Shown here: piece by piece, positions 5,396 through 23,763 of the stretch
Layout of the letters: every line of letters begins with the position of its first letter
Position numbering within the stretch: the stretch's first letter is position 1
From: a virus
Reading direction: 5' to 3' (one strand)
Length of the DNA: 25,278 nucleotides
Virus record (IMG/VR): IMGVR_UViG_3300017967_000189
Span: 1-25,278 of that record
Made by a program: the position numbers and the translations under genes
Notes under the pieces: model-generated
Databases searched by the model: none
Seen by the model: only the letters and a program-made list of their open reading frames with translations
Told to the model about the DNA's origin: nothing

Positions 5396-6103
5396 ATGAA
5401 ACTGACTTTTGACGCGAATAACACTAAAGTATACGATAACATTCTAGATAAAGAACAATTCGATAAACTATTCGACTTTATGAACTTTATTCCGATGGTT
5501 CATAAACGTTCTCATGGTGAATGGAATCGTGTATGGGGGTTTAATGATGGTGAAATTCTTCATGCCAACAAATATGTTTGGACTAGGAACGCTACTAGGA
5601 AATTCGCTTACCCAGAAGATTGCTTGACGCCATATTTTGAAGCTGTCAATAAAGCAATTGAAGAATCTGGTATGTGGTCCGAAGAAGAGAAAAATGAGAT
5701 CACTACAATTGTAATGACCCCATATATCTGGCCACCTGGAACTGGTCTGAGTTGGCACAATGATAGTAACTATCTGGGTGCATTTACATTTTACTGTCAT
5801 CAATATTGGTCTCCTGAATGGGGTGGAGAATTTATGACATGCGAAGCAAATGACTATATTTTACCAGATAAAAAAGATGTAAAGTGGAAAGTATTTGACA
5901 ACCAACCTCTGTATGATGTTATCCTGGATGAGGGTGTAGGAAATTACATTCAACCCAAACCCAATCGCTTAGTCCTCAATAAAGGAGGTCCAAAAGGAAT
6001 TCTACATAAGGTAAATAAAAGTACAGTAAACGCTGGTCCAAGAATTACCTTACAGGGATTTATTAGGTCCAAAGGTATTGATGATGATTGTTGTTCTGAG
6101 TGA
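5396..6103 (+). CDS. 2OG-Fe(II) oxygenase (prolyl 4-hydroxylase-like)
   Basis: This 235-residue protein carries the facial-triad pattern of 2-oxoglutarate/Fe(II) dioxygenases. H121 and D123 form the HxD in 'SWHNDSNYLG', H204 in 'ILHKV' is the distal histidine, and R216 in 'GPRITLQGF' sits 12 residues later where the 2OG carboxylate is normally bound. 'GGEFMTC' after the HxD fits the jelly-roll strand that follows it in this family. It would couple oxidative decarboxylation of 2OG to hydroxylation of an unknown substrate in the infected cell. The gene begins three bases after the fibrinogen-like fibre gene and is followed closely by a second oxygenase, so co-transcription is likely. Such enzymes are common in cyanomyoviruses; their substrates are not established, and modification of virion proteins is one idea. 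Confidence 0.85.
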   Translation: MKLTFDANNTKVYDNILDKEQFDKLFDFMNFIPMVHKRSHGEWNRVWGFNDGEILHANKYVWTRNATRKFAYPEDCLTPYFEAVNKAIEESGMWSEEEKNEITTIVMTPYIWPPGTGLSWHNDSNYLGAFTFYCHQYWSPEWGGEFMTCEANDYILPDKKDVKWKVFDNQPLYDVILDEGVGNYIQPKPNRLVLNKGGPKGILHKVNKSTVNAGPRITLQGFIRSKGIDDDCCSE

Positions 6104-6108
6104 GTATT

Positions 6109-6846
6109 ATGAAGCATGAATTGAGAGAATTTTTTCCCAAAGTCTTGGGAATTTATCATCCAGATGGTGACTTTGAGCATCATACGATCAAAGAAACTTG
6201 CGAAAGAATTAAGCAAGAAATTCCAGAAGGTCATGAAGAATGGAGTTTTAATTTATTTGATAGAGAAAATCTTTGCCATTATTACAATCAATCAAACTCA
6301 TCCATACTGGATGTAGATCCAGTTTTTGTACCATTTGAACAATGGTTGAAAAAATGTGCTCATCATTTTATGACTGAGATTCATAATTATGTTTTGCCAG
6401 GTGGACCTGATGATTTGTTTGTCAGTGATTGTTGGATGAATTGGTGCCGTAAGGAAAGAGCGGCACAGATTAAACACAATCACAATAATTCTTTGATCTC
6501 TGGAACTTACTATGTAAGCAGAGAAGATTATGTACATGCTGGTCTTGACTTCTTCCAAACTTGTCCAGATTTGCATCCATCTCTCACTCACATGAAGCAA
6601 TGGGACAACGTTACTAAATACAGTAGGCAAACTGAACAGTTTTATCCTAGTGAGGGTACTCTCTTGCTGTGGTCATCTGAACTTTATCATGGTTATGATG
6701 GAACCGTGAATTTGTGGGATGGTAGAACTACCATTTCTATGAATTTTGTTCCTAGTGTTATAGATAATGGTAAGTATGCCTACGCTATCGATACCGATAG
6801 AACAAGGTATCAGAATCAATTCGCTAATAAAGATGGAATTTCCTAG
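6109..6846 (+). CDS. Second 2OG-Fe(II) oxygenase (2OG-FeII_Oxy_5-like)
   Basis: I prefer the ATG at 6109 (245 residues), preceded by a weak purine-rich GAGTGAG, over the GTG at 6100 that overlaps the upstream stop. The protein has an H123-N-H125 motif in 'KHNHNNSLISGTYYV', a distal H194 in 'LYHGY' and R206 in 'GRTTISMNF', 12 residues further on. This layout, with 'SG.YYV' directly after the first histidines, matches the TIGR02466/PF13759 type of oxygenase seen in marine phages and bacteria rather than the classical HxD prolyl hydroxylase of the gene before it. It probably hydroxylates an unknown substrate. The two adjacent oxygenases are only distantly alike, so they are not a simple recent duplication. 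Confidence 0.82.
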   Translation: MKHELREFFPKVLGIYHPDGDFEHHTIKETCERIKQEIPEGHEEWSFNLFDRENLCHYYNQSNSSILDVDPVFVPFEQWLKKCAHHFMTEIHNYVLPGGPDDLFVSDCWMNWCRKERAAQIKHNHNNSLISGTYYVSREDYVHAGLDFFQTCPDLHPSLTHMKQWDNVTKYSRQTEQFYPSEGTLLLWSSELYHGYDGTVNLWDGRTTISMNFVPSVIDNGKYAYAIDTDRTRYQNQFANKDGIS

Positions 6847-12819: not shown

Positions 12820-13407
12820 ATGGATCTATTTGTTACTAGAGTAAGCGACTTTCAAATTCCAGATATTCACTTACTCTCTGATCATATTATCCCACATCTA
12901 CTAGAAGAAGAAAAAACCATTGAACGCCAAGGTGACGCATATTCCATGCGTGGCAAAACTGGCTATCATTCTAGAGATAATCTTTGCGGCATTGATGCTG
13001 AGTGGTCAGAGAACCTAAAGTTGGTTATCCATGCCATGATTCAAGAACATGCTGCAAATGAAGATCGAGCAATCCCCCCTGCCCACTTGTGTAGGATTGC
13101 ATGTTGGGGTATGATTATGAGAGAAGGAGATCATTCTGTATTTCACAATCATCCTAACGCACGCTATAGTGGTGTTCTCTATCTTAAGGTTCCAGCAGGT
13201 TTGGAAAAGAAGGAAGGAGAGTTAGTGTTTGTAGATCCTAGAACACAAACTAGGGTTGGTAAATACTATGATCACCATGTTTTCCATAGAATCCACCCAG
13301 TTCCTGGTGAAGGATGGGTCTTTCCAAATTGGTTAGACCACTATGTAGAACCACATTTCTGTGAGGGTGAACGGATATCACTATCATTCAACCTCGTTGA
13401 CATGTAA
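12820..13407 (+). CDS. Third 2OG-Fe(II) oxygenase (TIGR02466/PF13759-like)
   Basis: This 195-residue protein contains H109-N-H111 in 'FHNHPNARYSGVLYL', then 'GELVFVDPR', a distal H174 in 'WLDHYVEP' and R185 in 'GERISLSFN', 11 residues later. This order (H.H, SG..YL, l.f.DPR, H.V.P, eRisvsfN) is the recognised layout of the marine-type 2OG-Fe(II) oxygenases. It should bind Fe(II) and 2-oxoglutarate in the cytoplasm and oxidise an unknown substrate. It is the cleanest family match of the three oxygenases here. It follows the small acidic gene by two bases and ends just before a late promoter, so it probably closes the transcription unit that began upstream. Confidence 0.87.
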   Translation: MDLFVTRVSDFQIPDIHLLSDHIIPHLLEEEKTIERQGDAYSMRGKTGYHSRDNLCGIDAEWSENLKLVIHAMIQEHAANEDRAIPPAHLCRIACWGMIMREGDHSVFHNHPNARYSGVLYLKVPAGLEKKEGELVFVDPRTQTRVGKYYDHHVFHRIHPVPGEGWVFPNWLDHYVEPHFCEGERISLSFNLVDM

Positions 13408-13617: not shown

Positions 13618-13924
13618 ACTGCGTCAGCAGGAGCACGTCAATTCTACACAGATAGCAGTTCCATTTGATGGAACTGCAGAGACGTGCCCCTACAAGACGG
13701 GTGATGAATATCAAGGTAGACCAATTGTTGCGATTGGATTTACCAAAAACATTTATGGTCATCACTACCATTTAATTGTTGAGCGGGATAAAACTCATTT
13801 GAGAACAAAGTTTGTTTTCGATGACAAACACGATCTCAAGTTTACTAAACCAGTCGAAAGAATGGCTAAAACTCCCGACATTCGTAAATACTTGCCAAAC
13901 CCTGCTGATGCCAACAGAACTTAG
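13595..13924 (+). CDS. Hypothetical protein of unknown function
   Basis: The start ATG at 13595 gives 109 residues and overlaps the coiled-coil gene by 23 bases. The protein has a basic, polar N-terminus and a beta-rich core ('PIVAIGFTKNIYGHHYHLIV') with a cluster of histidines and aromatics. A charged C-terminal part containing 'RKYLPNPADANRT' follows. No family was recognised. The last 17 bases overlap the aminotransferase start. Coding is supported by the tight overlap chain and by protein-like composition, not by homology. Confidence 0.6.
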   Translation: MAIKKSSELRQQEHVNSTQIAVPFDGTAETCPYKTGDEYQGRPIVAIGFTKNIYGHHYHLIVERDKTHLRTKFVFDDKHDLKFTKPVERMAKTPDIRKYLPNPADANRT

Positions 13925-15110
13925 AGCATGGACAAACGGTGATCTAGATAAGATTGTAACAAAAACAGATGGATACTGGGTGGAGTATTCAGATGGCACA
14001 CGTTTACTCGATGTGCAATCTGGAAACTCCGCTTATATTTTAGGGTATGGAAATCAAGAAGTATTGAACTCCCTGAATTCCGATGTCAATTTTGTTAGAG
14101 GAAACCGAGGAGAGACCTGTGAGTTAGCACAGAAAATGGTCAAGCATGTATGCGAGACTGGTAACTGGGACGTATTGTCCTGGGCAATCTCTGGTTCATC
14201 TGCAGTAGAATCTGCAATCAAGATGAACGACCAATACTGGGGAAATCCAGAAAATTACATCGTTACATTTACACCTAGTTTTCATGGTACAACATTTTTA
14301 TGTCGTGCCATGGGTGACGATGATAACTATGTGAAGAGAATTAAAAAAGTACCGACACCTCTGTGGAAGAAAAAGGAAGATCAGATTTCTGCAGAAAGAA
14401 AGTCGTTTAAATATTTGCAACTCTTACTCAAGACATATAGGGGTAAGGTAGGTTGTGTTGTGATGGAAACTCTACCTTGGTTGAAAGGTGGTATACCCTG
14501 GTCACCATCCTGGTGGAAGATGGTTAGACATCTCTGCGATGAAGAAAACGTATTGTTAGTTGTTGATGATGTTGCTTGCTGTTGGGGTAAGTCTGGTCAT
14601 TGGCACGGATGGCAAAAGTATGGTATGCAACCAGACATCGCTGCATTGGGGAAATCATTAACTGCTGGATATACTCCTTTAGGATGTTCTGTCGCTAACA
14701 AAAAAGTTGGCGATGTAATTAGAAATAAAGATTGGGAGTTTGGTCATACTTGGCAACCAACTATGACAGGAATCAAAGCGATGAGTAAAGTCGTAGAGAT
14801 TATCGAGAGAGAAGATCTATTTTCTCTCACATCTCACATTGAGTTCTGCCTCAAAATGGTTGCGGAAAATTTATTAGATAGAAAGTATATTACATCATAT
14901 AGATGTAGTGATCTTTTCCTGTCTTTAGATCCACAAGAAAAGTATATGGATGCTAATGGAGATCTCAGTATGGAAGCATTTATGAAGTCTGGGTTATCTC
15001 TTACTAAGACTAGAAATGGATCTATTAGAATAATTGCTAACTTCAGATCAGATGCAATCTTTTTTGAGCAGATGGAAAAACGTCTTATCAAGTTCTTCCA
15101 AAGGCAATAG
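13908..15110 (+). CDS. Class III PLP-dependent aminotransferase
   Basis: The preferred start is the ATG at 13908 (400 residues); the same frame is open back to 13812, but that part lies over the previous gene and has no aminotransferase character. Family hallmarks appear in order: 'SGSSAVESAIKM' (phosphate loop), 'FHGTTF' (aromatic over the PLP ring), E187 in 'VMETLP', D220 in 'VVDDVACCWGKSGH' and the Schiff-base lysine K249 in 'ALGKSLTAGYTPLG'. The D-to-K spacing of 29 equals that of ornithine aminotransferase (D263, K292 in the human enzyme). The enzyme should move amino groups between a glutamate/2OG-type pair and an aldehyde or keto substrate. Glutamate-1-semialdehyde aminomutase, omega-aminotransferase and amino-sugar roles are all open. 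An intact active site argues against decay. Confidence 0.85.
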   Translation: MPTELRAWTNGDLDKIVTKTDGYWVEYSDGTRLLDVQSGNSAYILGYGNQEVLNSLNSDVNFVRGNRGETCELAQKMVKHVCETGNWDVLSWAISGSSAVESAIKMNDQYWGNPENYIVTFTPSFHGTTFLCRAMGDDDNYVKRIKKVPTPLWKKKEDQISAERKSFKYLQLLLKTYRGKVGCVVMETLPWLKGGIPWSPSWWKMVRHLCDEENVLLVVDDVACCWGKSGHWHGWQKYGMQPDIAALGKSLTAGYTPLGCSVANKKVGDVIRNKDWEFGHTWQPTMTGIKAMSKVVEIIEREDLFSLTSHIEFCLKMVAENLLDRKYITSYRCSDLFLSLDPQEKYMDANGDLSMEAFMKSGLSLTKTRNGSIRIIANFRSDAIFFEQMEKRLIKFFQRQ

Positions 15111-15118: not shown

Positions 15119-15145
15119 CACCTGAGGGTATAATTGAGATGGCGG

Positions 15146-18100
15146 ATGAAAACGGCACTCGTCAGGGTATCTGACAACTATGATCTAGAGACGGCGAAAT
15201 CTGATATCCTGGAGAGATTCGGATACTTGACGTTTGATAAAATGTTCCCATCTTTTAAGATGATTACATTTACTTGCGATGATCAATATCAACTCTTAAC
15301 GGAAACTTCAGTCAGAGCACTTCCATACATCCAAAGATTTCGTTGGGATGCTGAGGATAAGTTCTCTTTGCATCCAGTAGAAGATGGTGCAACTGCAACT
15401 ATTGAGACCAATGGAGAATTTTCCCTCAACTCCGAAGGTGGTCTAAATGCAGTTACTAATACTAGGAACTTAACTGGCAGTGGATCTGGAACACTCTACG
15501 TAAAAGTCCAGAACATTGGTGGTCTAAACTTTTATGTGTTCTCACAGACCCAAGGTGGAACTTATAGTAGGTATTCTTCATTTAGCGGATTTGTACAAGG
15601 CGCTACCTATACATTTGATACTAGTGATGTCAGTAATGCCACTCACCCATTCAGATTGTCAGAAACTCCAGACGGTACTTGGACAACTGGAGGAACTGAA
15701 TATACTGCAGGTGTAACAGTTAATGGAACTGCAGGTAATGCAGGATCTTACACCAGAATTGTTGTAGGTACAAGTACACCATCAGTCTTCTATTATTATT
15801 GTACCAATCACCCAGGTATGGGAAGATATCAGGTTTCACCTGATAGATTTGGAACCTTTAATATTCATGACTATTGGCACCTGGATAGAATCACAAAGCA
15901 GGATAGGCAATATTTAAATGGAGAGTTCAGTACGACCGTCGATGGTGACACAGTAGACATCTATGTCATTGACACTGGTGTCCGTGGTGCAAGTAGACCT
16001 ACGGGTAACAATGCGGCTCTACATCCAGAACTATTTGATCCAAACTTTGTATCCGATCTTAATGGTACATCGGAACAACAAAACTATAGGCTATTTGAAG
16101 TTGCAGGATATACATCTCCTTATAGCACAAATGAAGATGACAATGGTCATGGTACATACTGTGCTATCTGCTCTGCAGGACGAACAGCAGGCGTTGCAAG
16201 AGAAGCGAAGATCTATGCCCTAAAAGCATTTAGCTCAGGTCTCAGCGCTTCCTACACCGCTATCCTGGACGCCTATCAAAAGGTCCTTGACCACAATACA
16301 AGTGGCAATGCAAACTACAAAGGCAACACAAGAGCAGCAGTTATCAATGCTTCTTTTGGACCAACAATTCCTTCCCAAAACTATCCTTACGTAGAACTTA
16401 ATGACGCTGGCAATGACAGCGGTACTGATGAAGAGATGCTCGATGATATGGAGAGCACTCTAGTTGCAGCAAATATCATGCTGGTTAGATCTGCTGGCAA
16501 TGGATTCAAAAACAGCAGCGATGCATTTGCTGGTCCTCTGATGGGCAAAGTTGTAGCTGGTACAAGAACTGCTGGTTACGCTGATGCCACATCTACAGGT
16601 CAGATCAACAATGTAGATGTCAACCAAAATAAAATTTCTGTTGGAGCATCAACTTATAATGATAGGTGGGCAGACTTTTCCAACTATGGTTCTGGTGTAA
16701 CTACAGTTGCTCCAGGTTCAGGCATTTTAGTACCACGGTACGATTGGACTACTAACACTCCATACAACAGTACGTCTAATTATACCACAATCAATGGTAC
16801 CTCATTCTCTGGTCCTATTGTTACAGGTATTATTGCGGCATGGGCAGATAGTAATGGATACACTCTGACAACAAATACTCTGACAGCTCTGTCTAAGAGC
16901 TTCATTAGAGGAACTGGTAGCACTGGTGATATTACAAAAGGTGCACACGTAAATTATCCAACAAATAGTATTGTAGATAAAAAACTACCAACAGATCCAT
17001 TTGCAGTAACTGCAAGTTCTGATCTGGTTGTTATGAGTTTTAACCCTGCAGATTCTAGTTACTTCCTGAATAACGTTGGACAACAGTTACAATTAAGAAC
17101 TAGTAGTGGTTTGACCTCACTCGTTCTTGGCGGAGTATCTGCAACTACTTTCAATATCACTGTAACTGCACCGTCAGCATCTGCATACAACTTATCTGGT
17201 ACAGATAGAAGTGGAAACATTGCAGGAAATAATGTAGCGGTAACTTGTAATGTAGGTGATACTCTTAATTTTAACCTCAGTGGTGTATCTGCTACACACC
17301 CATTCTATCTTAGAGATAGTAACGGTGGTCCAAACGTCAGCACTCCTGCTGCTACAGGTCAAGGTTCTACGGGCACTGCAACTGTCTCTTGGACACCAAA
17401 TACTCCAGGAACGTACTATTACCAGTGTGGTGTCCACTCCGTTATGATTGGTAGCATTACAGTTACCAACACTGGATCTGGTATTGATATTGTTTCTGAA
17501 TCTCAGGAAGGGTGGTTTACTATCCAGGCACAAAACGCCGTAAACAATACACTCACCATCCGAACATCAGGTGCTACTCCAAGTTCTACCACAACTGGTG
17601 GTGGTGCAAATAATTATGCTGCTATCATTAAGTCCGCAGATAAAAGTCATGAAGCACAAGATGGTGTAGTTGCGACAGGTGTAACTTTAAGATCTCAAAC
17701 TGATACACAAGAAGGGCAAGGTACAGGTTCATACACAAACGTCAAATATATCCCAGTAGATACTGGTGTTGACTTTGAACCTACATCAACCGCCGATAAT
17801 ATCACAAAGTCTCTTGGCGCATTCTATCCATTTATTGATACAACCATCACCTGGGCGACTGCTGCAGGAACTATTGGTGGATCTGGATATAACAGCGGAG
17901 ATACTGTCAATATAGATCTTGGTGCATCCGTTTTAAGAACATTTTCAAATGAGCCAGTTTTTGAAAACTACGTGCTCTCTGGAGATTCCATTGGCGCTAG
18001 TGGTCTTACCTTCAATACTTCTACTGGTATATTATCTGGTACTGTTACTGCCGATTACCTCGATACCACTTTTAACATCACAGTAACAGAGCAGACTACA

Positions 18101-20617
18101 CAGAATGCTCGATCATATAGTTTCACTACTTTAGGAACGGGTGTTCTTGTCACAATTACAAACCAACCTACTGCCGCTAGCGTAGAAGCAGGATCTGGTG
18201 GGACAGCAACATTCGGTCCAGTTGCTGGTACAAGTTCAGACGGATCTACCATTACGTATCAATGGCAAGTTAGTCAGGATAATTCTGCCTGGTCTAACGT
18301 TACCAATACTGATGGTTATAGTGGAGCAACTACGGCAACACTAACAGTAGATGATGATTTTGCAAAAAATGCATATTACTTCCGTTGCGAACTCGATACG
18401 AATACTGCAGTTTCTCCATCATATACAAACTCGGTACAACTAACAGTATTCCGTGTCATCACCGTTTCTACTCAACCAACAGATCAACAACCAGTAGCAC
18501 CTGCTGCAGCAACATTTACAACTGCTGCTAGCACATTAGATAGTGCATCAGTCAGCTATCAGTGGCAAAAGCAAGAGGCAGGAACTTCTACTTGGTCAGA
18601 TATTGGTGGTGCAACTACTATATCCTATACAACAGGAACTACATCATATGATGCAGATTTTGGTGATAGCTATCGTTGCAGATTAAATGCAACTGGTGCT
18701 ACCCAAACATTTACAAATGCTGCATTGTTGAATGTAACTAGAACTATCAACATTACATCTCAACCAACTAGCACAACAGGTGCAATCGGAGGTACTAGAA
18801 CATTTGGTGTTGCTGGTAATACTTCAGATAATGATGCTGGAGATATCACTTATCAGTGGCAGAGATCTATTACTCAAGGTTCTTCCTGGAGTGACATCAA
18901 TGGTGCTACTGCATCTTCATACACAACACCAGCATTAGATTCTGCATACGATAACAACCAATTCCGTTGTTTGCTTTCTGCCCCAGGAGCAACCACTGTT
19001 CCATCCAACGCTGCAACTTTACAAGTTGAGACAGTAACTCCTATTGTTACAATACAACCTTCAGATGCAACTGTAGACGAAGGAACTACTGCTACGTTTA
19101 CAACTCTTGGTGACACCACAATGACACCAATCGGCGGTAACGCTGCATCCTCTTCGTTCGATACAGAATCTTTCACCACTCCTAGTGGTGGCGGTGGCAA
19201 TTCTGATGAGCAATTTGCTGGTGGTTTTAGTGATCATGAGCCTAATGTCACATACCAATGGCAGAAGTCTGATGATGCTGGTGCTAACTGGTCTGATGTT
19301 CCAGGTGCAACTAATGCATCATACACAACAGGAACTCTAACATACGCTAACGACAACCAAGATCAGTATCGTTGTGAAATTGATGCTGTTGGCGCAGCAA
19401 GTCCCGCTTATACAAATGCAGCAACTCTAACTGTAGAGAGAACTCTCAGCATCCAGACAGATCCTGCAAACCAAACTGGTAATGAGGGTAGCACATCCAC
19501 ATATAATGTAACTGCAACTCAAAGTAGTGGTACTCCTACCTACCAATGGGAGAGATCGGATGATGGTGGTGCTAACTATAGTCAAATTGGTGGAGCAACA
19601 TCTGCGTCATATACGACACCTACACTGGTCTATGCTGACGATAATAATGATCGTTATAGAGTTGTAGTTTCTCTGGTTGGTGCAGCATCTAGTGTTACAT
19701 CAAATTATGCAACTCAAACAGTTCTGCGTGTAATTAATATTACCACGCAACCACAAGACATTGCAGTTATTGAGGGTGCTACAGCAACCTTTAATATTGC
19801 TGCAACAATCACTAGTGATTCTATTACATACCAGTGGCAAATCTCAACCAATGGTGGCGGTGCATGGTCTAATATCAATGGTGCTAACGGAGCATCGTAT
19901 ACTACACCTGCTACAACATATCCAACTACACCATCAGAACAATTCCGTTGTGTTCTTACCAACCCTGCTGCAACAACAGTAACTTCTGTAGCAGCAACTC
20001 TGACAGTTAATGAATCTGAATTTGTATCTGCACCATCTCAGGTAACTCCTTTCGTTGATCCAGATACGAACAGAACTCTTTCTAGACAACCAGTTATCAC
20101 GACAAGCGCGTTTGTCTCTGAGTATGCTGGGTCCACACACTTCTCTAGTTTCTGGAGAATTAGAAGAACTGCAGATAACGTAACTGTCTACGATACTGCT
20201 GCAACGTTTGCCCAAGGTGATACTGGTAACAAAACTAGCTTTACAGTTTCTGGTGGAATTCTAGATTTTGATACTGCATATTATGTGCAAGTCAAGTTTA
20301 GAGATAACAATGGTCTTGAGAGTGCTTACTCTACTCAAGCAAACTTTACTACACCATTTGTCGATCAACCAAACATTCAGACCATTACACCAGCATTTAA
20401 TCCAACAGTTAATGTTGATGCTGCACAGATCAAGTCTGGTTATGTACACACCTCTAGTGATTGGCAGTTCTCACCAAATAGTACATTCTCCAGTATTGTA
20501 CACCAGTCCCTTGGTAACACTGCAAACCTTACATCATATACACTTCCAAACAGTGTAAACTTGACCGCTGACACTACATATTATGTACGCATCAGATTCA
20601 ACGTCAATCCACAGTAA
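15146..20617 (+). CDS. Giant multidomain protein: cupredoxin, subtilisin protease, cupredoxin, Ig and fibronectin-like repeats
   Basis: The ATG at 15146 gives 1823 residues; an in-frame TTG at 15134 is less likely. Domain order: residues 1-80 unrecognised; cupredoxin-like 1 (~85-235) with H167 and C219-x2-H222-x2-M225; S8 subtilisin (~255-610) with D276 ('VIDTGV'), H335 ('NGHGT'), N452 ('SAGNG') and S553 ('NGTSFSGP'); cupredoxin-like 2 (~670-775) with H718 and C761-x2-H764-x2-M767; a He_PIG-like domain (~900-1000, 'GLTFNTSTGILSG'); six Ig-like repeats marked by 'YQW' (~1000-1627); a fibronectin-like region (~1628-1735); and a beta-rich C-terminus. There is no signal peptide. All four catalytic positions are present, so the protease is probably active. 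The architecture and its place between fibres and gp13 suggest a virion surface protein. A role in degrading host surface proteins or in maturation is inference. Confidence 0.85.
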   Translation: MKTALVRVSDNYDLETAKSDILERFGYLTFDKMFPSFKMITFTCDDQYQLLTETSVRALPYIQRFRWDAEDKFSLHPVEDGATATIETNGEFSLNSEGGLNAVTNTRNLTGSGSGTLYVKVQNIGGLNFYVFSQTQGGTYSRYSSFSGFVQGATYTFDTSDVSNATHPFRLSETPDGTWTTGGTEYTAGVTVNGTAGNAGSYTRIVVGTSTPSVFYYYCTNHPGMGRYQVSPDRFGTFNIHDYWHLDRITKQDRQYLNGEFSTTVDGDTVDIYVIDTGVRGASRPTGNNAALHPELFDPNFVSDLNGTSEQQNYRLFEVAGYTSPYSTNEDDNGHGTYCAICSAGRTAGVAREAKIYALKAFSSGLSASYTAILDAYQKVLDHNTSGNANYKGNTRAAVINASFGPTIPSQNYPYVELNDAGNDSGTDEEMLDDMESTLVAANIMLVRSAGNGFKNSSDAFAGPLMGKVVAGTRTAGYADATSTGQINNVDVNQNKISVGASTYNDRWADFSNYGSGVTTVAPGSGILVPRYDWTTNTPYNSTSNYTTINGTSFSGPIVTGIIAAWADSNGYTLTTNTLTALSKSFIRGTGSTGDITKGAHVNYPTNSIVDKKLPTDPFAVTASSDLVVMSFNPADSSYFLNNVGQQLQLRTSSGLTSLVLGGVSATTFNITVTAPSASAYNLSGTDRSGNIAGNNVAVTCNVGDTLNFNLSGVSATHPFYLRDSNGGPNVSTPAATGQGSTGTATVSWTPNTPGTYYYQCGVHSVMIGSITVTNTGSGIDIVSESQEGWFTIQAQNAVNNTLTIRTSGATPSSTTTGGGANNYAAIIKSADKSHEAQDGVVATGVTLRSQTDTQEGQGTGSYTNVKYIPVDTGVDFEPTSTADNITKSLGAFYPFIDTTITWATAAGTIGGSGYNSGDTVNIDLGASVLRTFSNEPVFENYVLSGDSIGASGLTFNTSTGILSGTVTADYLDTTFNITVTEQTTQNARSYSFTTLGTGVLVTITNQPTAASVEAGSGGTATFGPVAGTSSDGSTITYQWQVSQDNSAWSNVTNTDGYSGATTATLTVDDDFAKNAYYFRCELDTNTAVSPSYTNSVQLTVFRVITVSTQPTDQQPVAPAAATFTTAASTLDSASVSYQWQKQEAGTSTWSDIGGATTISYTTGTTSYDADFGDSYRCRLNATGATQTFTNAALLNVTRTINITSQPTSTTGAIGGTRTFGVAGNTSDNDAGDITYQWQRSITQGSSWSDINGATASSYTTPALDSAYDNNQFRCLLSAPGATTVPSNAATLQVETVTPIVTIQPSDATVDEGTTATFTTLGDTTMTPIGGNAASSSFDTESFTTPSGGGGNSDEQFAGGFSDHEPNVTYQWQKSDDAGANWSDVPGATNASYTTGTLTYANDNQDQYRCEIDAVGAASPAYTNAATLTVERTLSIQTDPANQTGNEGSTSTYNVTATQSSGTPTYQWERSDDGGANYSQIGGATSASYTTPTLVYADDNNDRYRVVVSLVGAASSVTSNYATQTVLRVINITTQPQDIAVIEGATATFNIAATITSDSITYQWQISTNGGGAWSNINGANGASYTTPATTYPTTPSEQFRCVLTNPAATTVTSVAATLTVNESEFVSAPSQVTPFVDPDTNRTLSRQPVITTSAFVSEYAGSTHFSSFWRIRRTADNVTVYDTAATFAQGDTGNKTSFTVSGGILDFDTAYYVQVKFRDNNGLESAYSTQANFTTPFVDQPNIQTITPAFNPTVNVDAAQIKSGYVHTSSDWQFSPNSTFSSIVHQSLGNTANLTSYTLPNSVNLTADTTYYVRIRFNVNPQ
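18148..20025 (+). repeat. Six tandem Ig-like repeats within the giant protein
   Basis: Six copies of a module with core 'TYQW(Q/E)xSxDxGxxWSxIxGATxxSYTT' type sequence are present; their conserved Tyr codons lie at 18257, 18557, 18851, 19253, 19541 and 19829. Spacing is about 288-300 bases (96-100 residues), except between the third and fourth, where it is 402 bases because of an extra Gly/Ser-rich stretch. The copies differ clearly at the DNA level, so they are old repeats rather than recent slippage. Ig-like modules on tailed-phage virion proteins commonly aid weak binding to cell-surface glycans. Confidence 0.8.
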
Positions 20618-20619
20618 AC

Positions 20620-21435
20620 ATGGCACAACCTAGCACCAGGCAGGAACTGATTGATTACGCTCTGCGTCAACTCGGTGCACCTGTATTAGAAATCAATGTC
20701 GATGATGATCAGATTTCTGATCTGGTAGATGACGCTATCCAGTATTACAATGAGCGTCACATGGATGGTTATATCAGAACCTTCCTGAAAGTTCCTATGT
20801 CAGAGGTTGTTATTGACACCATGACTACGGATACTGATACAACTGTTACTAATGCAACATCAGCAGGTACCAGTATTACGTATAAAACTCAAAACAACTA
20901 TATCAAACTTCCAGACTATATCACAGGCGTAGTCAAAGTATTTGATTTTGTTTCTAAGAACGTTACTAATTTGTTTGACGTTCGCTATCAGTGGAGACTG
21001 AATGATCTTTGGGATCTCACAAATACAGAGATCTTAACTTATGAAATGGTCAATCGCAGATTAGAAGATATCTATTTCTTACTTGAAGGTCAGAAGCAAA
21101 TTAGATATCAGATGCGTGGTGACCGTTTGTATCTCGACATCGACTTTAAAGAAGATGTTGCAGATGGAGACTTCTTAGTTCTCGATTGTTATCGTGCAGT
21201 TGATCCATCTGACTTTGCTGCAGTATACAATGATCTTTGGGTCAAGCGTTATCTTACTGCATTGATTCGTAGACAATGGGGTGCCAACTTAATTAAGTTC
21301 CAGGGAGCACAGCTGCCTGGTGGCATCACTATGAATGGTGAATTTATTTACAATGAGGGCAAAGAAGCAGTCCAGAAACTTGAGGACGAAATGCTTTCTA
21401 GTCATGAATTCCCACCAATGGATATGATCGGATGA
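20620..21435 (+). CDS. gp13: T4 gp13-like neck protein
   Basis: This 271-residue protein starts two bases after the giant protein's stop. It begins 'STRQELIDYALRQLGAPVLE' and continues with 'DDQISDLVDDAIQYY' and '...GYIRTFLK', the typical opening of cyanophage gp13. A C-terminal block 'VYNDLWVKRYLTALIRRQWG' then 'LPGGITMNGE' follows. In T4, gp13 (309 residues) and gp14 form the neck that closes the filled head and connects it to the tail; cyanophage versions are somewhat shorter. The next genes are gp14, gp15 and gp16 in T4 order, which strongly supports the call. Its stop overlaps the gp14 start in an ATGA arrangement. Confidence 0.9.
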   Translation: MAQPSTRQELIDYALRQLGAPVLEINVDDDQISDLVDDAIQYYNERHMDGYIRTFLKVPMSEVVIDTMTTDTDTTVTNATSAGTSITYKTQNNYIKLPDYITGVVKVFDFVSKNVTNLFDVRYQWRLNDLWDLTNTEILTYEMVNRRLEDIYFLLEGQKQIRYQMRGDRLYLDIDFKEDVADGDFLVLDCYRAVDPSDFAAVYNDLWVKRYLTALIRRQWGANLIKFQGAQLPGGITMNGEFIYNEGKEAVQKLEDEMLSSHEFPPMDMIG

Positions 21436-22760
21436 GAAACGTATTCTTCACACACGGCACTCGCAACGAACAATTCCTCCAACAGAACCTTGTGGAGGAA
21501 TATCTTAAGATGTTTGGAATGGATATTCTATACATTCCCAGGCAACTTATTAGAAAGGATGGCGTGTTCAATGAAGAAATCATTTCTGAGTTTGACGATT
21601 CATATATTATTGAAGCATACCTAGAGAACAATGAAGGATTTCAGGGTGGCGGTGACTTACTGACTAAGTTTGGAATCAGACAAACAGATGAGATTACAAT
21701 GGTGATCTCACAGCAAAGATTTTCGGATTTGATTTCTCAGTTCTTACTCTTAGATACAGATGTAGAAGTAGGAGAGAGACCTCAAGAAGGAGATCTTATC
21801 TACTTCCCACTTAGCAGTAACTATTTTGAGATTAAGTTTGTAGAACATGAAGAACCATTCTACCAGTTAGGTAAGGGTTACATATTCAAACTGCAGTGTG
21901 AGCTCTTTGAATATCAAGATGAGCAGGGAGATATCTTTGAGGGTGATGAAGATCTGGTCGATACTGGATATACTGTCAAGCATTACTATCTTCCACAGAA
22001 TGGAATTAGTGCTACAGGATCTGCAAGTCTATACAATGGTGCTCTAGAGCAACTGTACATCTCAGAAAATGGTAGTAAGTATATTGAAGCACCAACGGTG
22101 ACTATTGGTGGAGATGGTACAGGTGCTACAGCATCCGCATATCTCATCAACATCACAGTCTCTGGTGGAACTCCAACCAAATCTGCTGTCATTAGGGGTA
22201 CAGTAAAAGAGGGAACTCTAAGGTCCGTCAAGATTGTTGATGGTGGCGAAGGGTACGATGAAGATAGGGCAACGATTGCTATCAGTGCACCTGCAGCAGG
22301 TGGTGTTGTGCCCACATTAGTTCCAACATTTACAAAAGGAAAGTTGACAGCAATCAACATTACGGGTGAAGGATCTGGATATAAGAGTGTCGCATTGTTA
22401 GATATTGATACTCCTGGTACTGGATATACTAATGCAACTGTACAAATTTCTGCAGCACCTGTAGGCATCACGGGTTCATTTAAGATTGGAGAATCTGTCA
22501 CTGGTGGTTCCACTGGCGCTGTGGCACAGCTTGTGGAGTGGGATGCTCAAGAGGCATGGATCAAACTTAAATCTCCCACTGGCACATTTGCGATTGGCGA
22601 AACAATCATGGGTAGTACATCTGGTGCAACTATCATCCTAGATAATAGAGATGAGATGGCAAGTACCGATACTAAATATTATGAGAATGTTGCCTTTGAA
22701 GATCTTGGGGACGACATTATTGACTTTACTGAGACGAACCCATTTGGAGTAGCTACTTGA
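21432..22760 (+). CDS. gp14: T4 gp14-like neck protein with inserted fibre-type repeats
   Basis: This 442-residue protein overlaps gp13 by four bases. The first ~205 residues are typical of gp14 ('FLQQNLVEEYLKMFGMDILYIPRQ' in split form, 'FEIKFVEHEEPFYQLGKGYIFKLQCELFEY' in split form), and the last ~30 ('YYENVAFEDLGDDIIDFTE' and 'NPFG') look like its normal end. T4 gp14 is 256 residues. Between residues ~207 and ~410 lie beta-rich repeats such as 'GSKYIEAPTVTIGG', 'GEGYDE', 'GEGSGYKS', 'GTGYTNATVQI' and paired 'F.iGE...G.tsGA' units, resembling modules in the giant fibre at 2-4525. The protein closes the head and joins the tail. The added part could project outward from the neck like a whisker or decoration; that is inference. 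Confidence 0.88.
   Translation: MRNVFFTHGTRNEQFLQQNLVEEYLKMFGMDILYIPRQLIRKDGVFNEEIISEFDDSYIIEAYLENNEGFQGGGDLLTKFGIRQTDEITMVISQQRFSDLISQFLLLDTDVEVGERPQEGDLIYFPLSSNYFEIKFVEHEEPFYQLGKGYIFKLQCELFEYQDEQGDIFEGDEDLVDTGYTVKHYYLPQNGISATGSASLYNGALEQLYISENGSKYIEAPTVTIGGDGTGATASAYLINITVSGGTPTKSAVIRGTVKEGTLRSVKIVDGGEGYDEDRATIAISAPAAGGVVPTLVPTFTKGKLTAINITGEGSGYKSVALLDIDTPGTGYTNATVQISAAPVGITGSFKIGESVTGGSTGAVAQLVEWDAQEAWIKLKSPTGTFAIGETIMGSTSGATIILDNRDEMASTDTKYYENVAFEDLGDDIIDFTETNPFGVAT
21473..21501 (+). repeat. Short perfect inverted repeat near the start of gp14
   Basis: ATTCCTCC (21473-21480) pairs perfectly with GGAGGAAT (21494-21501), and ACA/TGT just inside the stem can extend it past a bulged A to a six-base loop. 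It lies about 40 bases after the gp14 start codon and includes a strong Shine-Dalgarno-like GGAGG. No U-run follows, so it is not an intrinsic terminator. It could tune gp14 translation or RNA decay, or be a product of codon choice. Confidence 0.35.
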
Positions 22761-22761
22761 T

Positions 22762-23763
22762 ATGTTAGGGACATACACATATAACCAGATCATTAGAAAG
22801 TGCGTCATTGGATTTGGCACACTGTTTAATGATATTGAGGTTCGCAAGAACAATGCAGACGGAAGTACCTATAGCAGAATGAAGGTGCCTCTGGCGTATG
22901 GTTCTCGCCAAAAGTTTTTAGCAAGATTAGAACAGCAAGCAGATCTTAACCAGAAAGTTGCGATCACGTTACCACGTCTGTCATTTGAGATGACTGGCGT
23001 TTCCTACGATGCCAGTAGAAAACTTAGTGCAATCACACTCAATCTCAAAGCAGATACTACTAACGCGGTTAAGAAACAGTATGCTCCAGTTCCATACAAT
23101 GTTGACTTTGAACTAAACATCATCTCAAAAACAAATGATGATGCTATTGAGATTGTAGAGCAGATTTTACCATACTTCCAACCATCATATAACATGACCA
23201 TCAAATTGGTCGATGCAATGGAAGAGTTCAGAGATGTTCCCGTTGTCCTTAATAGTGTGAACTACACGGATGACTATGAAGGATCTATGGATGATCGTAA
23301 GTTGACATTGTTTACGTTGCAGTTTACGGCAAAGACTTACATCTTTGGTCCTGTTGGAACCTCTGGTCCTATCAAAAAAGCAAAGGTCGATTATCATACA
23401 GAAGTCGATCTTACGGCACCGCGCAGAGTTTCCTACCAAGTCACACCAGCAGCAGTGTCGGACAAGAACAAGGATGCTACTACGGAACTTGCCGAAAAGA
23501 TTACAAAGACAACTCTTGTTATCGAAGTTTTAGATTCTACCGATATTCCACTCAAGACATACATCGAAATCGGAAACGAGGTTATGTACGTCAAGTCCAA
23601 ACCTGCTACGAATAAACTTGGTGTTCGCAGAGCACAAAAAAATACATCTGCAGCAGAAGCAGTTGCAGGTACACCAGTTGATCTAATCAACGCAGCAGAT
23701 GATGCGCTGTTAGATTCTAGCGACGACTTTGGTTTCAATGAGATGACTTCGTTCTATGGATAA
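22762..23763 (+). CDS. gp15: T4 gp15-like tail sheath stabiliser/completion protein
   Basis: This 333-residue protein starts one base after the gp14 stop. It matches gp15 in its opening ('Y.YN..IRK....FG.LF.DI...R'), in 'VPLAYGSRQKFLARL', 'LPRLSFEMTGVSYDA' and especially 'EIVEQILPYFQPSYN', a signature shared with T4 gp15. In T4, gp15 (272 residues) forms a hexamer capping the tail tube and sheath, allowing head attachment. The protein here is about 60 residues longer. The extra C-terminal part contains 'IEIGNEVMYVKSK' and 'LGVRRAQKNTSAAEAVAGT', which resembles the 'E.m.V......l.V.RG..GT.a..H..G..V' module of other phage structural proteins. The call itself is firm. Confidence 0.9.
   Translation: MLGTYTYNQIIRKCVIGFGTLFNDIEVRKNNADGSTYSRMKVPLAYGSRQKFLARLEQQADLNQKVAITLPRLSFEMTGVSYDASRKLSAITLNLKADTTNAVKKQYAPVPYNVDFELNIISKTNDDAIEIVEQILPYFQPSYNMTIKLVDAMEEFRDVPVVLNSVNYTDDYEGSMDDRKLTLFTLQFTAKTYIFGPVGTSGPIKKAKVDYHTEVDLTAPRRVSYQVTPAAVSDKNKDATTELAEKITKTTLVIEVLDSTDIPLKTYIEIGNEVMYVKSKPATNKLGVRRAQKNTSAAEAVAGTPVDLINAADDALLDSSDDFGFNEMTSFYG

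Follow-up and report, generated by a model that had tools for sequence, protein, structure and literature searches.

Predicted type 1 copper-type cupredoxin domains beside a subtilase in a tail-region protein of a T4-like marine cyanophage, and their occurrence in other marine phages

Locus and gene content

The window, meaning the whole stretch of DNA analyzed here, is a 25,278-base virus record with T4-like neck genes, namely, gp13 (head-tail adaptor, 20620-21435), gp14 (neck, 21432-22760), and gp15 (tail sheath stabilizer, 22762-23763). Directly upstream of gp13-gp14-gp15 sits the gene studied here, which encodes an 1,823-amino-acid tail-region protein on the plus strand (ATG 15146..20617, with the stop at 20617). 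The open reading frame (15134-20617) reads as an earlier, sequence-only reading had stated and has an in-frame TTG upstream at 15134; ATG 15146 is the start used by all relatives, as seen from their conserved MK[RK]VVVRV. Residue numbers are counted from this ATG and rise by 4 when counted from the TTG. A class III aminotransferase gene lies directly upstream (13812-15110), which is unusual in a tail region, and three 2OG-Fe(II) oxygenase genes are found among the tail-region genes of the window (5396-6843 and 12820-13407).

The protein matches PHROG 27200 over its full length. Homologues in the Prochlorococcus phages P-HM1 (PHM1_104), P-HM2 (PHM2_106), and MED4-213 (CPMG_00018) are 63 to 64% identical along the whole length and keep both of the ligand sets described below; they are annotated as hypothetical, with their cupredoxins unrecognized, and those of P-HM1 and P-HM2 occupy the same gene place, before gp13. 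The window protein is a large virion-type tail-region protein of a T4-like marine cyanophage; its place before gp13 and its PHROG classes suggest that it is part of the virion.

Along the protein, a conserved N-terminal region is followed by an unstructured linker, cupredoxin 1, a Peptidase_S8 domain, cupredoxin 2, and an array of Ig-like repeats. The N-terminal region (15146..15373, plus strand) is conserved in 15 relatives and gave no Pfam or PDB match; its position suggests a protease pro-region, and it resembles the subtilisin pro-domain (I9) by eye only. The linker (15383..15478, plus strand) is predicted to be unstructured (pLDDT < 50, model residues 1 to 32). The subtilase catalytic domain (15950..16891, plus strand; Pfam PF00082, E value 1e-24) carries VIDTG, NGHGTY, and GTSFSGP, in agreement with the Asp/His/Ser motifs and family profile of Peptidase S8, and was the only Pfam match on the whole window protein. 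The Ig-like array (approximate limits 18140..20017, plus strand) was delimited by PHROG 613, 25852, and 3995 and by tail-protein matches. In six relatives (L033, L040, L027, L051, L034, and L031), a third cupredoxin interrupts this array at about residue 1420, with Gln replacing Met in its loop (CHFHTGQG or CHSHTGQG); the window protein lacks this domain, and its repeat is uninterrupted there.

Metal ligands and fold

Each cupredoxin carries a candidate type 1 copper ligand set on the plus strand. For domain 1, the first ligand is the His of THPF (15644..15646; H167 from the ATG, H171 from the TTG) and the ligand loop is CTNHPGM (15800..15820; C219, H222, and M225); for domain 2, these are the His of THPF (17297..17299; H718) and the loop CGVHSVM (17426..17446; C761, H764, and M767). 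The residue numbers given in the sequence-only reading are exact when counted from ATG 15146, and the amicyanin-type C-x2-H-x2-M spacing that it reported is present in both domains. This pattern occurs exactly twice in the 1,827 residues counted from the TTG, and THPF also occurs exactly twice, paired with it. A chance origin of the paired motifs was considered and was ruled out by the alignment of domain 1 to domain 2 and by the four ligand columns ranking with the best conserved across 89 copies, both described below. Both domains keep the conserved register of residues by which type 1 copper proteins are recognized, namely, His, Cys, His, and an axial Met or Gln.

Domain 2 (17147..17470, plus strand) was delimited by AlphaFold2, Foldseek, and a PDB profile search. 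Its AlphaFold2 model (pLDDT, 91.1; pTM, 0.83) matched cupredoxin-fold proteins in all 50 of the PDB matches listed by Foldseek, nearly all of them copper proteins, including rusticyanin, plastocyanin, nitrite and nitrous oxide reductases, laccases, and CuA domains; a few of the matches listed, such as coagulation factors, share the fold. Foldseek TM-scores were moderate (0.4 to 0.5 by query). A profile of 49 domain-2-type copies, searched against PDB, retrieved solved copper proteins and little else (CuNIR, 2e-8; plastocyanin, 4.5e-6; rusticyanin, 3.3e-5; pseudoazurin, 4.7e-5; amicyanin, 1.6e-4). Aligned to plastocyanin 1b3i, the His, Cys, His, and Met of domain 2 all fall on the plastocyanin ligands, and the plastocyanin loop, longer by two residues, shows these two as an insertion. 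The NCBIfam amicyanin model TIGR02657 matched 30 of the 49 copies at an E value of ≤0.01 (best, 1.1e-6), with no NCBIfam match at 0.01 for the window's own domain 2, and Pfam Copper-bind matched 43 of the 49 at an E value of ≤1 (best, 1.2e-7). The Copper-bind gathering score is exceeded in several full-length relatives; window domain 2 scores 13.8 bits against a cut-off of 21.2, and it is because single copies score below the Pfam cut-off that the domain has been left unannotated. From sequence and predicted fold together, domain 2 is almost certainly a cupredoxin. Giant-virus proteins also match its fold (BFVD A0A7D3QVK4 and several Marseillevirus/Pithovirus beta-sandwich entries), one of which is named a blue type 1 copper protein (Fadolivirus).

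Domain 1 (15488..15877, plus strand) was delimited by AlphaFold2, weak Foldseek matches, and a profile match to domain 2. Its model (163 residues, the first 32 unstructured; pLDDT, 82; pTM, 0.75) matched pseudoazurin, laccases, and rusticyanin weakly (Foldseek E values of about 0.001 to 0.01), and the sole match below 0.001 was SO1698, which is not a copper protein. The domain 1 profile alone had no match in PDB, and Pfam found nothing relevant on the domain 1 copies, none of which passes a Pfam copper model. Profile-to-profile comparison with domain 2 (hhalign) gave a probability of 98.6% and an E value of 1.3e-15, with all four ligands aligned. Mainly on this alignment, and secondarily on the weaker fold match, domain 1 is very probably a cupredoxin too. 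The cupredoxin reading proposed from sequence alone is thus borne out for domain 2 by profiles, model, and fold search and, for domain 1, is supported mainly by way of domain 2.

Among solved proteins, amicyanin has in common with the phage domains the cupredoxin fold, the Cys-x2-His-x2-Met loop, and the upstream His. It is a free periplasmic electron carrier, whereas the phage domain is a module embedded in a tail protein (here of 1,823 amino acids), and the window holds no methylamine dehydrogenase-type operon; the first His of the phage domains precedes Pro, unlike that of amicyanin, and matches to the amicyanin model are weak. Plastocyanin (PetE), whose four ligands align with domain 2, has the same fold but is a soluble single-domain photosynthetic carrier with a Cys-x2-His-x4-Met loop, and the phage domains differ on both counts. 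Copper nitrite reductases gave the best domain 2 profile match, and in the cupredoxin domain appended to Thermus NirK, CSIHPYMKG lines up in register with the phage loop; these enzymes are catalytic trimers with a type 2 site, which the phage domains lack. Multicopper oxidases (laccase-type domain) are fold matches for both phage domains and carry an HPFHLH motif, which the His-Pro-Phe at the first phage ligand resembles; laccases have a longer Cys-His-Met spacing, and neither window domain contains the HxH pairs of the trinuclear site of multicopper oxidases.

Conservation

Copies were collected from viral contigs and isolated phages (147 distinct; 89 after removing those >75% identical). The viral-contig loci were found by short peptide patterns, some spanning the ligands, so that this set is biased; the isolated-phage set was found by tblastn without ligand patterns, and 30 of its 38 copies keep the ligand pattern; one further copy, that of S-SKS1, has Cys-x4-His-x2-Met. 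Across the 89 copies, the four ligand columns are among the most conserved; all four ligands are retained in 67, and 5 copies, representing the third cupredoxin of relatives, keep His, Cys, and His and replace Met with Gln, which is the axial ligand of stellacyanin.

Loss of the ligands is strongly joint. Of the 89 copies, 73 have both Cys and the second His, 15 have neither, and a single copy has just one of the two (73/1/0/15; Fisher, 4e-16); the first His is likewise associated with Cys (Fisher, 7e-8), and both associations exceed those of all other pairs among 14 conserved columns. With the identity limit set at 50% (36 copies), the two associations stand at 1e-7 and 0.002, respectively. 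Because kinship inflates co-loss tests, a tree was built without the tested columns. On this tree, Cys was lost about 8 times, and the second His changed along with it in 6/6 independent pairs (P = 0.03); Met/Gln (about 4/6 pairs) and the first His (about 3/6) moved in the same direction and never in the opposite one, not significantly, so that significant tree-aware co-loss is confined to Cys and the second His, residues that lie three apart. Control columns followed Cys loss in about 0 or 1 pair (G143, F59, and G102) or about 2 pairs (Y181). The ligands are therefore not lost freely among homologues, the outcome that would have spoken against the sequence-only reading: Cys and the second His disappear as a pair, often along with the other two, and the selection on the ligands that it had proposed agrees both with retention of the full set in most copies and with the weak or absent tracking of the loss by other conserved columns.

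Copies without ligands retain the fold signal, so the fold does not depend on metal. In L028, L030, L031, L035, and L036, proteins with three to four cupredoxins in tandem include one or two that have lost the ligands, beside intact neighbors. Judged from these sequence comparisons, a functional type 1-type metal site is very likely.

Occurrence

For domain 1, 133 phage records match, most of them cyanophage tail fiber or structural proteins, and the matches extend to phages of Pelagibacter and Methylophilales; domain 2 matches 30. PHROG 677, the gp9-type baseplate wedge tail-fiber connector, is matched by 48 of the 49 domain-2-type copies, and the C-terminal domain of S-RIM2 gp9 matches 336 phage records, nearly all cyanophages, and the ligands are intact in 5/5 of the gp9-type proteins whose ends were read. 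A phmmer search with the gp9 domain alone gave nothing significant. The C-terminal domain of the gp9-type connector is the same cupredoxin module; this connector has intact ligands in common with the window protein, from which it differs in having a single copy and no protease. Cyanophage baseplate proteins annotated as gp9-type or T4 gp10-like end in an intact cupredoxin in five records (L094:1862-2806, L095:1577-2809, L107:1045-1779, L108:307-1782, and L109:604-1785), and the large baseplate genes that come after them in L094, L095, and L109 hold further, longer copies.

Cupredoxin-S8 fusions were found in S-H9-1, ACG-2014h, L032, L036, L059, L067, and L076, and the two occur in adjacent genes in P-SSM2, S-SSM7, and S-SCSM2R; the fusions were rechecked with Pfam, since low-stringency phmmer also hit low-complexity repeats. 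Copper-type domains do flank the protease of the window protein, as had been claimed, with the Pfam S8 domain between both; the arrangement is no oddity of one protease but one instance of a module widespread in marine phage virion proteins. The S-SCSM2R gene annotated as PetE (L106:3764-4270) encodes 168 amino acids, of which the N-terminal part is not plastocyanin and the C terminus is a gp9-type cupredoxin (49.5% to the S-RIM2 gp9 domain), and adjoins an S8 peptidase gene; it is likely a virion module mislabeled as a photosynthesis gene.

The search for a cellular origin gave one genome-collection match in a marine archaeal bin, the short Euryarchaeota MAG contig WTIV01000062.1, encoding a domain that shares 68% identity with domain 2 of the window; weaker matches occur elsewhere in the bin, and the contig itself may be viral. 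Within the open-license literature, we found no paper on phage tail or baseplate proteins that describes cupredoxin domains in them, under this name or as blue copper or plastocyanin-like domains. The finding is of a known fold in a new setting.

Interpretation

The reading that we favor, at about an even chance (roughly 0.5) for its parts jointly, combines a cupredoxin fold, a selected metal site, and a structural or docking role. The natural metal is probably copper. The same ligands could bind zinc, and the cytoplasm offers little free copper for assembly, which counts against copper. Under this reading, the cupredoxin would serve as a rigid beta-sandwich display module of tail fibers, the baseplate connector, and tail-associated proteases. 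It would be made metal-free inside the cell, where copper is scarce, and the natural guess is that it acquires the metal only later, at lysis or in seawater, given how tightly type 1-type sites bind copper. Once bound, the metal would lock the tip loop of the sandwich and thereby stabilize the exposed module or shape its surface for docking on a neighboring virion protein or the host; some proteins would have given up the metal site but retained the fold. That the role is structural or docking, rather than redox or supply, is tentative, a shade short of even odds. It is supported by the occurrence of the domain, together with Ig-like repeats, in proteins annotated or classed as tail fiber, baseplate connector, or virion structural proteins.

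A module common to fibers, connector, and proteases makes a shared role in stability or docking likelier than control of the protease. We therefore regard as unlikely a switch in which copper binding or oxidation gates zymogen processing or activity, keeping the enzyme silent in the cell and active outside, even though cupredoxin 1, behind an unstructured linker, separates the N-terminal region from the catalytic domain, cupredoxin 2 comes just after the latter, and the cupredoxin-S8 pairing recurs, fused or adjacent. If the linker before domain 1 were cut, domain 1 would stay with the mature enzyme; a cut just before the catalytic domain would send it away with the N-terminal region. Most copies have no protease (e.g., the gp9-type connector and tail fibers), the order of cupredoxin and protease varies (before, after, or both), and domain 1 of L040 and L051 has lost Cys and His and kept its S8 match, all of which argues against such a switch. 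Nor does the all-or-none loss of Cys and the second His fit an Ig-like scaffold whose Cys, His, His, and Met are fossils kept by common descent only; ligand-less copies with a fold signal do exist, as that explanation expects, but Met is replaced mainly by Gln, a known axial ligand, and the ligands are retained at identities of 25 to 40%, so that we consider it quite improbable.

In a copper analogue of the iron Trojan horse, fiber metal would be recognized by, or handed to, copper-handling proteins on the host surface. Ligand-bearing copies do occur on the fibers and fiber connector of Prochlorococcus, Synechococcus, Pelagibacter, and Methylophilales phages, and iron-binding tail fibers have been proposed in a marine phage (R22Y; PMC11705849), where a metal site, an HxH one, likewise lies in the tail and differs in fold, ligands, and metal. 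Against this, gp9-type copies sit at the fiber base and not at its tip, and ligands are lost in some fiber copies. We know of no host receptor for a copper-type phage ligand, and we hold this scenario to be distinctly unlikely. Highly improbable is a captured host plastocyanin acting in electron transfer proper and serving photosynthesis or respiration in the infected cell. Plastocyanin does rank with the closest relatives of solved structure, and cyanophages carry separate, true plastocyanin genes (petE; PMC3037559), but the domains described here are embedded in tail proteins of 400 to 1,800 amino acids with no sign of thylakoid or periplasmic export, their loop is amicyanin-like and not the longer plastocyanin one, and phages of nonphotosynthetic hosts are included.

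For marine phages generally, the two blue-copper-like domains flanking this protease are one case of a widespread module of tail and baseplate proteins. Plastocyanin-like matches in phage genomes are accordingly not always photosynthesis genes, one gp9-type module having already been labeled PetE. A wider proposition, which we offer as speculative and on the doubtful side, is that blue-copper modules are regular virion parts of marine T4-like and related phages, including the fiber-baseplate connector; that free virions are copper loaded; that the metal or its redox state matters for fiber attachment, tail triggering, or protease activation; and that the particles add to the organic copper ligands of the sea. 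Should copper occupy the sites, known marine phages by the hundreds would be metalloprotein particles. A metal, and possibly a redox signal, would then have a part in how cyanophage tails are assembled, stabilized, or triggered, and viruses would make a measurable contribution to the binding of copper in seawater.
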